From contig JAJRVW010000170.1 of the NCBI GenBank assembly GCA_024277115.1, positions 1 to 60,708 on the forward strand: a stretch of DNA of 60,708 nucleotides, in the 5' to 3' direction. The position numbers were made by a program, and so were the translations under genes. This DNA is from Calditrichota bacterium. GTDB lineage: Bacteria > Calditrichota > Calditrichia > Calditrichales > J004. The notes below the pieces were generated by a model. The model worked only from the letters and a program-made list of their open reading frames with translations, was not told where the DNA came from and ran no database searches. This document shows, in pieces, positions 251 through 46,922 of this stretch; the stretch's first letter is position 1; every line of letters begins with the position of its first letter.

Positions 251-3200
251 TTATCTTTTCAAAATATTACCAGTAACGGAAATATTAAAATCGTAATTCT
301 CAACAAGAAAGTTAAAATTTCCTTTTGTTAATCTTAGCCAAGGAAGAGGATTTATAAAGTTTATTTCAGAGTTTTTTAGTTTATTATCCTTCATATACTT
401 TACAATTGTCAACTCGTCTTTGTTCTTACTACTTTGTTGTAATGCGGTCTGATGATATCGGAACTGAATTCTACCATCGCCTTCAAATCCAATTATATTA
501 TATAGCCTTTTTACTTTTTCTGACTTACGCAATCCCCAAAAATCATCAACGCTTTTTTCATAGAACAAAACCAGGGTACCCTTTTTTAAAACATACTTTA
601 ATTTTTTGCCGTTTTTTTCTATCGGTATTAGTAAATTTTCATCTTGTGACTGCCTACTCTTAAGACGGTAGTACCTCCCAGCTTGAAGCATATTTACAAG
701 TTCGAACTCACGAATTGTTTTCCCGTTTTTGTTTCCGCCCTCATAAATCGCCATACAGTAGTTTTCATCATTGACTACATTAAACTTTTGTTTATACTTC
801 TGCTTTGATAAATCACGATGCTTTTTAAAATTTGGCAACGGATTTTTTACAGCAGGTGTATAAACACGTACTTTCTTTAATGGAATCCCTTTTTCCTTAT
901 TTTGCCAAATGAAAACATCTTTTTCAACTTTAAGGCCACCTGAAATTTTCTTGATCATTTTATCCTCTATCGCCTTTTGGATAATTTTTCGTATCTCAGG
1001 GTCTACAATTTTTTCTACATCCGAAACCTTAAGTGTATTCAATTCCTTTCTTACAACATATTTGGGTATAATCTCCCCTTCACTGTTTCTCTCAATTTGA
1101 CCATTTATGTCCTGGGCAATAGCGCCATAAAATGTATCCTGATGTAGCGAGCCGCGAACCGTATCGCCTTGCTGATAAATAACCTCTCCCTTACTATTTC
1201 GTTGTACCACACCACGTTTTCGTAATTTTTTCTTTGATTGAATTTTCACTTTGTCCGGTGTGTTGTGAACAACAAAAATTTCATCTGAGATACTTTTAAC
1301 ATCTTGGGTAAATGTTGTCCAAGGTTTTGTTTTAAGTAAAATTTCCTTTGCAGATTGATATTTCTTTTTATTGGCATTATGAAATTTACTTTCTTCTTCC
1401 GATGCCCATGCATGTGCTAAAGCGTCATATTTTTGTTTATCCATCGCTGCAATTACAATCGCATCTATACAATGATGAACATGATTGGAACGGTCTTTTG
1501 GTTTATAAAATTTATTATCATAATCATCTTTATAACTTTCTTGTAAGCCCCACGCCTTGCGATATTCTGAAGTCATTTCTCCTTTTACAGAATAGACCTT
1601 GGCAAAATATGATCCTAAATATGCGCGTGCATATTTCGAAATAATACCAATATCCACTTTTTGACTATTTTTAAATCCAGGTTTTATTTCTCTGGTCGTA
1701 AGACGATCATATTTCCCTTTTATATAATCTCTCTTAAATGAAAGTAGATGCCTCTGTTGTATCTTTCTATCCTTTTGCTCTTTCGTGGTGGCAGCTTTTA
1801 CAGAACGGGTTATGCGTGAAATCTCCCTGTCTAAATCTTCATATTCTTTTTTCCAATGGTCTGCGCGTAATAGAATTTCATCGTAATTACTTAATTGGGA
1901 TGGAAGCTGGTTTTTCTTTACCATCCTGTTAAAATCAATATCACAAAGTGTTTTATTCATTTGAGAGTTGTCTTCTGATTGGCTTCTAGGCAAAGTATGT
2001 TCAATCTCATATTTAGCCCCAGTGCCGATAAAATCTGAAATACTAATATTCTCAACGCCTGTATAAAGACATTTATGTTTTTGCTCTTTCCAAAACTTAT
2101 ATTTTAATATATCATCTTCAGTTGGTTCAACTTCCTGTCCTGTTTCAGCAAAATAGTATTCTTTAATTCTTTCAACAGAATCCACTCGTTCTTCCTCTAA
2201 AACTTTTTGCCACCGTTTAATAGCAATCCGCTTATTTGAGTCGTTTAGTTCCCGGGCCAATTCAATATTGACTTTTGTAAACCGATCAACTTTCCCCTCG
2301 GTTATTAATGTATTTACGAGTTTCCTAAGTTGAAATAAACTACGCATAGCCATTGGATTGCGAACCGAGGGTGTTGCCGGGCTTCCCAACCCATCAACCT
2401 CAACCCCATTTTTATCTTTTATTTTTTGCGGTTTAAACATTGCTATATCAGATGGGTGATATAATTTTTTCATTCTACTTTCGTCCGAGCAGAAAACCTC
2501 ACCTGTTTCATTTTTACCTAATAAAAGGTCAGTAACTTTTTCATCAATACGTTTTATTACAACAAATTCGCCTTCACCGTTTTTTCTTCTGTAGTTCTGG
2601 AGAAAGAGTTGAAAAGTACCCTCAAAAACATTTTTTCCCTTTTCAATTTCTTTCCATCTTTGGGTTCCAAAAAACTCTTTCAATGCCAAATTTAGTTTAA
2701 CTTTGTAGCGTTCCTCGGCAAGTGGGGTATGTCTTTCATTTTTGTCCCTAAAAGTTTTTATTAATCCATTTATTACCTGGGCTATATTGTTTTCGAACGT
2801 ATGTTGGTCAATTTGGGTTTTTATTTTGTCCAGTAAATCGTCACGTCGCTCGGGCTTGTCCCAAATCTCCTTATCAACAATTTGTTCAAGGTTCGCTACA
2901 AAAACCGCATGCGAGTAGATCAATCCATTTTCTAAAAAGGGCAGGATTTTTTTAATTGCCTTAAGGCTAAGGGCAGCATAATCTTTTTTAAGAATGATTT
3001 TACTAAACCGGTTTGCATTTATCTCATCAAGGTTAAGTTTTTCTAAGGCAAATTCTTTCAGTTTTTCAACTGTATCAAATGTGAATAAAACGTGCCATAA
3101 ATCATTAAAATCAATTTTATGATTCTTTGTTTGACCTTTTTTATCTAATGTTTCGTAGGTATATTTTGAAGTTTTCCAATTTTCGCCAAATATGTATTTT

Positions 3201-4500
3201 AAATTTGCCGAGGTTGGGCAACCACTTACAGTTGTATTTATTTTATAATTAAAGATATTGTCTTTGCCCAATACATTTACAAGTTCTTTAAAATCAAAAT
3301 ACGGTTTGCTTTTCTATAAAACTTTGGGACAATCTTTTGTTTTTCATCGCTTGTCAATGGGCGTAGTTTTTCATCTTCCGGAGCTTTCATTTTAATATTA
3401 TTAATAAAACTCCACATTCTGAATTCTTCAAATAAGGGATGAGAAACTGGGCAACGTGGTTTATTTTTTTCAAATGAGCATTTGCCAACCAAACCTTTTT
3501 GAGATTTTAAAGGCCTTTGGTAAAAAATTGCTTTATACAAATCCAAGACTAAACCAGAGTATTTTTTGTCTTCCGCTTTTTCATCAGGATTAATCGAAGG
3601 TAGCCCTTGTGTTTTGCAAATAGTTTCAAACTCGTGTAAGTAATGCTCTTTTCTTGCTGTATAGTGTTTACGTATTTTATTCTTTGGATATAAACTATTG
3701 AAATATTGTCCCATAGTTTCAGAATAGCTCTTTTGCATTTTTTCTGTAAGGTCACTAATCCCACTTTTTACATCACCAAGATTTTCTTTTCTATATAGTC
3801 TCTCTTTTAGTTTGTTTTTTAGCTCTGCAATTTCCATATCAGAGTTCTTAATAATGCCATAAAAAGATCGGCTAATTTTAAATAATGGTTTTTCAACTTC
3901 ATTAGTTTTATCAAATGTATTAAAATAAGAGTCCAATTCTTTTTGTAATTCCAAAAGGTTACAACTCTCCTCAATAATTTGCTCAATTTCAGGAGCCTGA
4001 TCCTCGACAATACTATTATCTGTTGTATCTAAACGGTTGCTTAAAAAACCTCTTCGCTGCGCCATGTGATAGAATGCCCTTCCCAGGTCCTTCTCATCAA
4101 TCTTTTTAATCGAAGCTTTTGCCCTAAATAAATACGGGTTTTTATTTTTTTCTTCATCCGTTTTAAGCCACTCTAAAAATCCTGGATTTGTCGGATATTT
4201 TTTGAAATTCGATTTTCTCCAATCTTCTACTTCTTTTAAGGAAAGAGGACACATTTTGTTTTGAACTAATACACGCAAAGTTTCGTACTTCCTCAATTTA
4301 CGTCTAAATTTTAACTTCCTGGCGCTTCTATAAGATGTTCTTTCTGCTGACCGCGAAGATTCATTGCCGTTCTCATTTTTAACTCCTTCCGTAAAAATGA
4401 GCACACCTTTATCCAATAATTTTGCTTTATTATCTTCTTTTTCAAGAATTGCCCACCCAATAGAGTTTGTGCCCAAATCCAAGCCCAAAGTTTTACCCAT
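251..4500 (-). pseudogene. cas9: Type II-C Cas9 endonuclease, broken by one missing base
   Basis: Cas9 is the RNA-guided double-strand DNA nuclease. It is read in two frames, 4500-3277 (407 codons) and 3271-251. Adding one base in the A-run at 3310-3313 (plus-strand TTTT) joins FYRK to SKPYFDFKELVNVLGKDN and gives a continuous 1416-residue protein, typical of long II-C Cas9s. All catalytic elements are visible in joined numbering. RuvC-I is GLDLGTNSIGWA with D8. The arginine-rich bridge helix is RSARKLKFRRKLRKYETLR. RuvC-II is NIELARELND with E747. The HNH domain is YEIEHTLPRS with H835, and N858 in FNR. RuvC-III is HHCIDA with H1010 and D1013. The residue before the HNH histidine is Glu rather than the usual Asp. 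A GGGAGG ribosome-binding site precedes the ATG at 4500. cas1 follows after 3 bases. Only this lesion separates it from an intact gene, so sequencing error is possible. Confidence 0.93.
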
Positions 4501-4549
4501 CTTTTCCTCCCTTATTAAGTTTCTTCTTGTATTCTTAAAATCAGTATTG

Positions 4550-4645
4550 TAGATTTACACCATAAGACAATTGCATCTTGTCACAATAAGGCTATATGCC
4601 GTAGACATCAGTCTTTAGCCCCGCTTCGGTGGGGCTTTCTTTTTT
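4550..4645 (+). ncRNA. tracrRNA-like RNA for the adjacent Cas9
   Basis: The region upstream of cas9, transcribed away from it, looks like a II-C tracrRNA. Around 4581-4600 the sequence reads TCACAATAAGGCTATATGCC. It resembles the ACAAUAAGG core that ends the anti-repeat and opens the nexus in Neisseria-type tracrRNAs. GGC and GCC at 4591-4601 form the nexus stem, AGAC/GTCT at 4603-4614 form a second small stem, and a strong terminator follows. The anti-repeat should lie at about 4555-4587, which predicts a CRISPR repeat beginning (A/G)TTGTGACAAGATGC. The 5' end is not determined. A TTG and TAGATTTA pair 20 bases apart near 4528-4558 resembles a Bacteroidota-type promoter, but this is weak. 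The assignment rests on position, motif and structure; the repeat itself is outside the window. Confidence 0.7.
4617..4645 (+). terminator. Rho-independent terminator of the tracrRNA
   Basis: AGCCCC (4617-4622) pairs with GGGGCT (4631-4636), extended by two further pairs and closed by a TTCG tetraloop. A T-rich run follows to 4645. It ends the tracrRNA-like transcript on the plus strand. Confidence 0.85.
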
Positions 4646-13459: not shown

Positions 13460-14341
13460 TTATCTCTTTAACATAACAAGTTTTGTTGATTCATACTTTA
13501 GCGGGACTTTTAAAAATTCGAGAGTAAATGTATTTGCAAATTCACTGATGCTCTTAATGAGTTCGGCAGGAAGCCCTGTTTGCTTAATCAAAATATACGG
13601 GAGAACGGTATAGGTGCCCGCCTTTAACAGCCTTGCGGGTAATTCAATTTGCGATACAATCGTTTGTCCCAGATAGATTCCGCTTTCATACAAAGGATAG
13701 CCATCAAAAAAAATAAATGATTCTGAAATAGGGCCGTCTTCCCTCTTTAGAAAGAAACTTTTTACCCCACTGCCCTCGCTCACATAAGAAGTAAAAAAAA
13801 CAGGCGATGTAGAGCTTACCGGTTCAAGTGTAATTGTAATCCGCACTTTTTGCTCGGGATACGGCGTTTCATAAATGGGAACATCCGGTAAAATTGTGCC
13901 CGATATTTTTACCAATGGCGCTAAAACAATATCCTCGCGCAACTTGCCTTCTTTTGTCAAATCATTTTCATCAAATACGAATGACCCGTTTTTAATAAGC
14001 ACATCCGATGTTTCAAATTTATAATTTGCAACAAAATAATAGATTTTAAAGAGGCCATTCCAGGCCTGCGCACCACCGGGAAGAGAAGAAGGGTTATCCA
14101 GAGTTAAAGTAAAGTCACCTTGTTCATTGGTCCTGGTATTAACCTCAAGTCCTTCAATCCACACAAATATATTGGAATGATCGGCCTCATTCAAAAGTGT
14201 AATTGTCCCCTTCATTTGAAGCTTAAGTTGCACCCGATCGTCTTTTGCAAAAAAGGGATTTTCGGTACAGCCCAAAACCAGGGATAACCAAGCCCACATA
14301 AAAACACACTTAAAATATGTAGTAAATTTTATATTCATCAA
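13460..14341 (-). CDS. Predicted lipoprotein, paralogue A of the TonB-receptor operon
   Basis: This 293-residue protein has a hydrophobic signal segment ending in LVLGC, and the mature protein starts CTENPFF. Its next neighbour starts CTTNPFF. It has a beta-sandwich-like domain with NTRTNEQGDFTLTLDNPSSL and the shared block NGLFKIYYFVANYKF, followed by a G-x-FVF pair and LTKEGKLREDIVL. The start ATG overlaps the stop of the TonB-receptor gene by four bases (ATGA), which indicates translational coupling. It is not a recognisable SusD protein: length and motifs differ. It probably helps capture the ligand of the receptor; this is inference from the operon. Confidence 0.7.
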   Translation of the reverse strand: MMNIKFTTYFKCVFMWAWLSLVLGCTENPFFAKDDRVQLKLQMKGTITLLNEADHSNIFVWIEGLEVNTRTNEQGDFTLTLDNPSSLPGGAQAWNGLFKIYYFVANYKFETSDVLIKNGSFVFDENDLTKEGKLREDIVLAPLVKISGTILPDVPIYETPYPEQKVRITITLEPVSSTSPVFFTSYVSEGSGVKSFFLKREDGPISESFIFFDGYPLYESGIYLGQTIVSQIELPARLLKAGTYTVLPYILIKQTGLPAELIKSISEFANTFTLEFLKVPLKYESTKLVMLKR

Positions 14342-46825: not shown

Positions 46826-46903
46826 TACTCTTACTCTTACTCTTACTCTTACTCTTACTCTTACTCTTACTCTTACTCTTACTCTTACTCTTACTCTTAC
46901 TCT
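46826..46903. repeat. Hexanucleotide microsatellite, (TACTCT) x 13
   Basis: This is a perfect tandem run of 13 units over 78 bases between mraY and murD. On the coding strand it is (AGAGTA)13, four bases before the murD ATG. The frame of murD has stops inside it, so it is not coding. Such tracts change length by slippage. Confidence 0.97.
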
Positions 46904-46922
46904 GCATTGACACAGTCAATGC
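46904..46922. repeat. Hairpin GCATTGACACAGTCAATGC, copy 1
   Basis: An 8-bp perfect stem with ACA loop, directly adjoining the TACTCT tract. Related copies lie at 48086-48104 and 48176-48194. Confidence 0.8.

Follow-up and report, generated by a model that had tools for sequence, protein, structure and literature searches.

The segment at 4563–4645 (+), which lies upstream of and divergent from a cas9 gene of a Calditrichota bacterium, is almost certainly the tracrRNA of a cas9-cas1-(cas2-array) locus, probably of type II-C, as judged from its sequence and its relatives. It belongs, as an unremarkable representative, to a family that occurs in flavobacteria too, and on comparison of the sequences its anti-repeat (15–22 nt), its ACAATAAGG core, its GGC/GCC nexus, its second stem and its terminator are all conserved in sequence, structure and position. 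The window, that is, the whole stretch of 60,708 nucleotides that was analysed, amounts to the entire contig C116, one of 255 in the assembly, and ends inside cas1, which immediately follows cas9. The locus in a genome of the same taxonomic order, that of Calditrichaeota bacterium isolate Zgenome_0002 (RQOG01000061.1, hereafter G020), comprises cas9, cas1, cas2 and an array of 14 repeats of 36 nt, GTTGTGGCTTGATGCAAAATATCGATAACTAACAAT, with no fourth gene. Type II-C operons consist of the three genes cas9, cas1 and cas2 and lack csn2 and cas4. The features of the window locus are collected in Table 1.

Table 1. Features of the tracrRNA-cas9-cas1 locus in the window.
Feature	Position	Strand	Remarks
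Predicted tracrRNA transcript	4563–4645	+	5' end predicted, ±5 nt; match of model R1 at 4573–4645
Anti-repeat core GCATCTTGTCACAAT	4573–4587	+	Identical in G020
Nexus hairpin GGC-TATAT-GCC	4590–4600	+	Invariant across all sequences
Second stem AGAC-ATCA-GTCT	4603–4614	+	Fold, covariation
Third stem and intrinsic terminator, AGCCCCGC-TTCG-GTGGGGCT plus T run	4617–4645	+	
Candidate promoter TTG-N20-TAGATTTA	4527–4557	+	Putative, read directly
cas9 5' part, 407-aa ORF, RuvC-I Asp present	3277–4500	-	TIGR01865, 196.6 bits
A run with one-base cas9 frameshift	3310–3313	-	Homology to relatives resumes in the other frame
cas9 3' part, 1006-aa ORF	251–3271	-	TIGR01865, 243.7 bits
cas1, N-terminal 82 codons, running off the contig end	1–247	-	Type II Cas1 profile TIGR03639, 58.8 bits over the fragment

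An earlier note on this DNA had placed a tracrRNA gene divergent from cas9 and had described a nexus stem, a second small stem and a terminator, all of which are borne out. The element was said to lie within 117 bases of cas9, and is actually found about 63–145 nt upstream of the cas9 start, an ATG at 4500 (-). The sequence GCATCTTGTCACAATAAGG occupies 4573–4591 (+), with the ACAATAAGG core at 4584–4592 (+), and the pairing of the anti-repeat may extend 5' to about 4565. Two of the four pairs of the second stem are altered on both sides among the relatives (A-U/G-C; U-A/C-G/A-U), the terminator stem comprises 8 bp, and the segment folds more stably than its shuffles (z = -2.27). The candidate promoter resembles the Bacteroidota TTG / TAnnTTTG form and has equal spacing in G020; a sigma-70 promoter scan gave no site on the tracrRNA strand. 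Since the promoter-like TAGATTTA covers 4550–4557, a transcript start near 4563 is more likely than the start at 4550 that had been proposed, and the 5' extension of the predicted transcript is drawn from this element together with the possible anti-repeat.

Statistical evidence for the identity of the segment comes primarily from a covariance model (R1) built on 20 Flavobacteriaceae tracrRNAs, from which both the window and G020 were excluded. Searched against the 60.7 kb window, R1 gave a single match, at 4573–4645 (+), with 88.8 bits and an E value of 2.2e-18, and it scored 86.6 bits in G020. Weak matches were obtained in Prevotella nigrescens (24.3 bits) and Persicobacter (22.5 bits), both at the corresponding place before cas9. 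In the 20 Flavobacteriaceae tracrRNAs the proposed structure leaves 97.7% of cells paired, compared with 38–46% when it is slid along the alignment, and 18 two-sided changes are present; the covariation score of 0.215 (0.121 in shuffles) was reached by none of 500 shuffles, in a control that relatedness inflates. The Rfam tracrRNA family RF02348 is the top family at the window locus (24.3 bits, far below its gathering score of 70) and in G020 (24.4 bits) under full-model alignment, and no Rfam family matches anywhere in the window at the gathering threshold. When genome_contigs was scanned with the core pattern ACAATAAGGCN{4,7}GCCGTNGACA, seven contigs were found, and in six of them (five Flavobacteriaceae and Calditrichaeota Zgenome_0002) the core sits a short distance upstream of cas9, in divergent orientation. 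The seventh, in L017 (Erysipelotrichaceae), was set aside as a chance match, cas9 being absent nearby. Further Flavobacteriaceae loci have a like arrangement of tracrRNA and cas9, and the viral contigs hold no tracrRNA core.

The cas9 gene spans 251–4500 (-) as two ORFs in different frames. All RuvC and HNH catalytic residues are present, those of RuvC-II, HNH and RuvC-III in the 3' part, but the frame breaks at a single point, which the earlier note did not mention. The break could reflect a genuine mutation or a fault in the assembly. Single splits of cas9 also occur, at other sites, in G020 and in L020. No array was detected in the window, as the earlier note had stated. In the whole assembly, a search that tolerated as many as 3 mismatches to the predicted repeat returned only the tracrRNA itself, and a family-tolerant repeat pattern found no array, a near-match on C67 being a lone site without flanking repeats; cas2 and the remainder of cas1 were not found elsewhere in the assembly either. 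A peptide-pattern search of genome_contigs and viral_contigs gave no close relative of the window Cas9. Elsewhere in the window, a tandem array of the hexamer TACTCT lies at 46826–46909.

As read in the current assembly the system is unable to work, because the frame of cas9 is shifted by one base and there is no array, and for the same reasons its function in the Calditrichota strain itself is uncertain. It is conceivable, and in our estimation rather unlikely, that the tracrRNA is a functionless relic of a locus that decayed through the cas9 frameshift and loss of the array. The split at 3310–3313 and the lack, in the assembly, of an array, of cas2 and of the remaining part of cas1 would fit such decay, as would the finding that each other pair of neighbouring genes tested in the window consists of two distinct, intact genes, which gives no hint of frameshift errors in general. 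However, all stems of the tracrRNA are intact, and both long cas9 ORFs and every Cas9 catalytic residue have been kept, bar one base. The absence of the array is uninformative because the contig stops inside cas1, which accounts for the missing array. Moreover, cas9 of G020 is also frameshifted yet stands beside a 14-repeat array, and single frameshifts in such MAGs are therefore weak evidence of decay.

Although the window has no array, its repeat can be predicted from the relatives of the locus. The repeats of 14 loci that have both tracrRNA and array start with GTTGT and form with the cognate anti-repeat about 8 bp, then U-U mismatches and then a longer helix; a U-U 2x2 loop lies at repeat positions 9–10 in all 14, and in 13 of them a G.U wobble occupies position 7. 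Pairing between the anti-repeat and the repeat of its own array is seen in G020, which has a repeat starting GTTGTGGCTTGATGC and, base for base, the 15-nt anti-repeat core of the window. From the G020 repeat, this pairing and the U-U loop of the relatives, the window repeat should start GTTGTGGCTTGATGC, as in G020, with AATTG probably next. For the window anti-repeat and the G020 repeat the calculated pairing energy is -20.8 to -21.5 kcal/mol, as strong as for the anti-repeat of G020 itself, whereas Flavobacteriaceae repeats give only -4.9 to -10.7 kcal/mol; cognate duplexes average -26.4 kcal/mol, as against -7.3 and -10.9 when anti-repeats and repeats are crossed between Calditrichota and Flavobacteriaceae.

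The earlier note had instead deduced a repeat beginning (A/G)TTGTGACAAGATGC, which assumes perfect complementarity, unlike the relatives, and is therefore not supported; three of its positions, 7, 9 and 10, are probably in error. We regard it as very improbable that the repeat of this locus is such an exact complement. It would indeed pair perfectly with 4555–4587, at -53.7 kcal/mol, but none of the 14 relatives has a perfect-complement repeat, the U-U at positions 9–10 being present in all of them, G020 included, and a search of the assembly for the perfect repeat matched only the tracrRNA itself. In Fp2Cas9 of Flavobacterium psychrophilum a UUU bulge of the crRNA is essential for activity (PMC12609912), a requirement that fits the U-U loop in the repeat duplexes and speaks against the exact complement. 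It is risky in general to read a repeat off an anti-repeat by simple reverse complementation; for members of this family the conserved U-U internal loop has to be put in. That the segment is a mere terminator, an unrelated small RNA or a cas9 leader, with ACAATAAGG arising by chance, is hardly credible: terminator-like hairpins are common and several other Rfam small RNAs score similarly below threshold, but against this stand the E value of 2.2e-18 with the tracrRNA model R1, from which the window had been left out, the compensatory changes among relatives, the same cas9-adjacent place in every relative examined and the pairing with array repeats.

With the segment read as a tracrRNA, its action may be outlined by analogy with established type II biology. 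Its transcription would run away from cas9, out of the intergenic promoter region common to both genes, and the repeat GTTGTGGCTTGATGC(AATTG...) would be transcribed in the cas9 direction. The anti-repeat would pair with the 5' part of the repeat in the pre-crRNA (8 bp, a U-U 2x2 loop and at least 7 bp), RNase III would presumably trim the duplex, and binding to Cas9 would fall to the nexus and the 3' stems.

The genes of the locus do not appear to share one history. Compared with L010 and L122, the window Cas1 fragment (1–247) and the tracrRNA are discordant with Cas9 (251–4500). The N-terminus of the window Cas1 is identical to that of G020 at 66 of 82 residues and to those of Flavobacteriaceae at 43 at most (column identities, Cas1 fragment). 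The Cas9 of G020 shares 60–63% of its residues with two Flavobacteriaceae proteins, against only 35% with the window Cas9; in a maximum-likelihood Cas9 tree it falls within the short Flavobacteriaceae clade (98/97), and the window Cas9 groups with that of G365, a Flavobacteriaceae genome (100/100). As Cas1 and the tracrRNA match G020 but Cas9 does not, a replacement of cas9 is suggested. An exchange between a conserved tracrRNA and cas1 is the simplest reading, bearing in mind that Cas1 is a fragment and that Cas9 evolves fast. On these sequence relationships we somewhat favor a natural hybrid, in which the Calditrichota tracrRNA and cas1 were kept and cas9 was exchanged for that of a distant lineage; if so, one tracrRNA and repeat type would serve Cas9s that are only about 35% identical. 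G365 and two Cas9 types that are 1.5 kb longer share the window-type tracrRNA and repeat, and thus one guide scaffold accompanies several distant Cas9s. A near-constant tracrRNA beside Cas9s that differ in two thirds of their residues bears on the exchangeability of dual RNAs and Cas9.

Among the related loci, a group with naturally nuclease-dead Cas9 was observed: L043 (13903–17277; G040), L046 (G211), L047 (G388), L020 (G043), L048 (G088), L058 (G231) and L059 (G065), with L021 (G044) partial. Their hosts are related marine Flavobacteriaceae, and several of the genomes measure 1.4–1.7 Mb. Other residues stand in place of the RuvC-I Asp and the HNH His in each of the seven full proteins, RuvC-III residues are also replaced, and the dead Cas9s form a single clade (100/100, maximum-likelihood tree). 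The loci keep long ORFs (split once in L020) and a window-type tracrRNA; type II cas1 is found in none of the six dead-Cas9 genomes tested, versus all 12 tested Flavobacteriaceae genomes with an active Cas9. By analogy, the dead Cas9 looks like a domesticated RNA-guided DNA binder, along the lines of TldR or of scaRNA regulation in Francisella. Full-text literature searches found no description of a nuclease-dead Flavobacteriaceae Cas9, and such a protein with a window-type tracrRNA is more surprising than the window tracrRNA itself. Right after the dead cas9 in L043 (about 13800–13875), L020 (about 3755–3830), L046 and L047 there are two copies of ATTGTGATTTGA, 50–53 nt apart. The first is preceded by GTTTTGTTTAGTTAAAATTT, identical in the four genomes (AGTTAAAATTT also occurs in L048), and the second by AARTATAGT, which also precedes a single repeat-like unit in L058 and L059. 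These conserved sequences could be fixed guides or promoter elements; when the guide-like sequence conserved at the dead-Cas9 loci was searched for targets, matches did not exceed the control and no conserved genomic target emerged. In G245, a second, altered tracrRNA copy comes after the first within about 85 nt (L123, about 5959 and about 6042), split by an inserted segment: CACAATAAGGCC ... ATATGCCGTA ... TTTAGTCCTGC.

Type II-C tracrRNAs of Neisseria meningitidis and Pasteurella multocida share the ACAATAAGG core. The description of the window element as Neisseria-like in the earlier note holds for this core only; otherwise the closest family is that of the Flavobacteriaceae type II-C loci, and the Pasteurella locus gave no match to R1 at E ≤ 1. 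The orientation and location of tracrRNA vary within II-C (PMC3936727). A full-text search combining tracrRNA and Calditrichaeota found no paper, and the present analysis offers a well-supported tracrRNA and a corrected repeat prediction for a Cas9 of a little-studied phylum. With the Flavobacteriaceae family the window shares the nexus, the second stem, the terminator, the duplex with its U-U loop and a tracrRNA divergent from cas9, whereas anti-repeat and repeat diverge beyond GAT. An example from this family is the repeat of Flavobacterium columnare, GTTGTGGTTTGATTAAAGATTAGAAAACACGATATT (PMC5395568). In the Flavobacteriaceae loci examined, cas1 is encoded on the opposite strand, past the array, whereas in the window it directly follows cas9. 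G020 resembles the window in its tracrRNA (63 of 67 columns), its anti-repeat core, the divergent position of the tracrRNA and the Cas1 N-terminus (80%), but differs in possessing an array and a Cas9 of another lineage, about 35% identical to that of the window.
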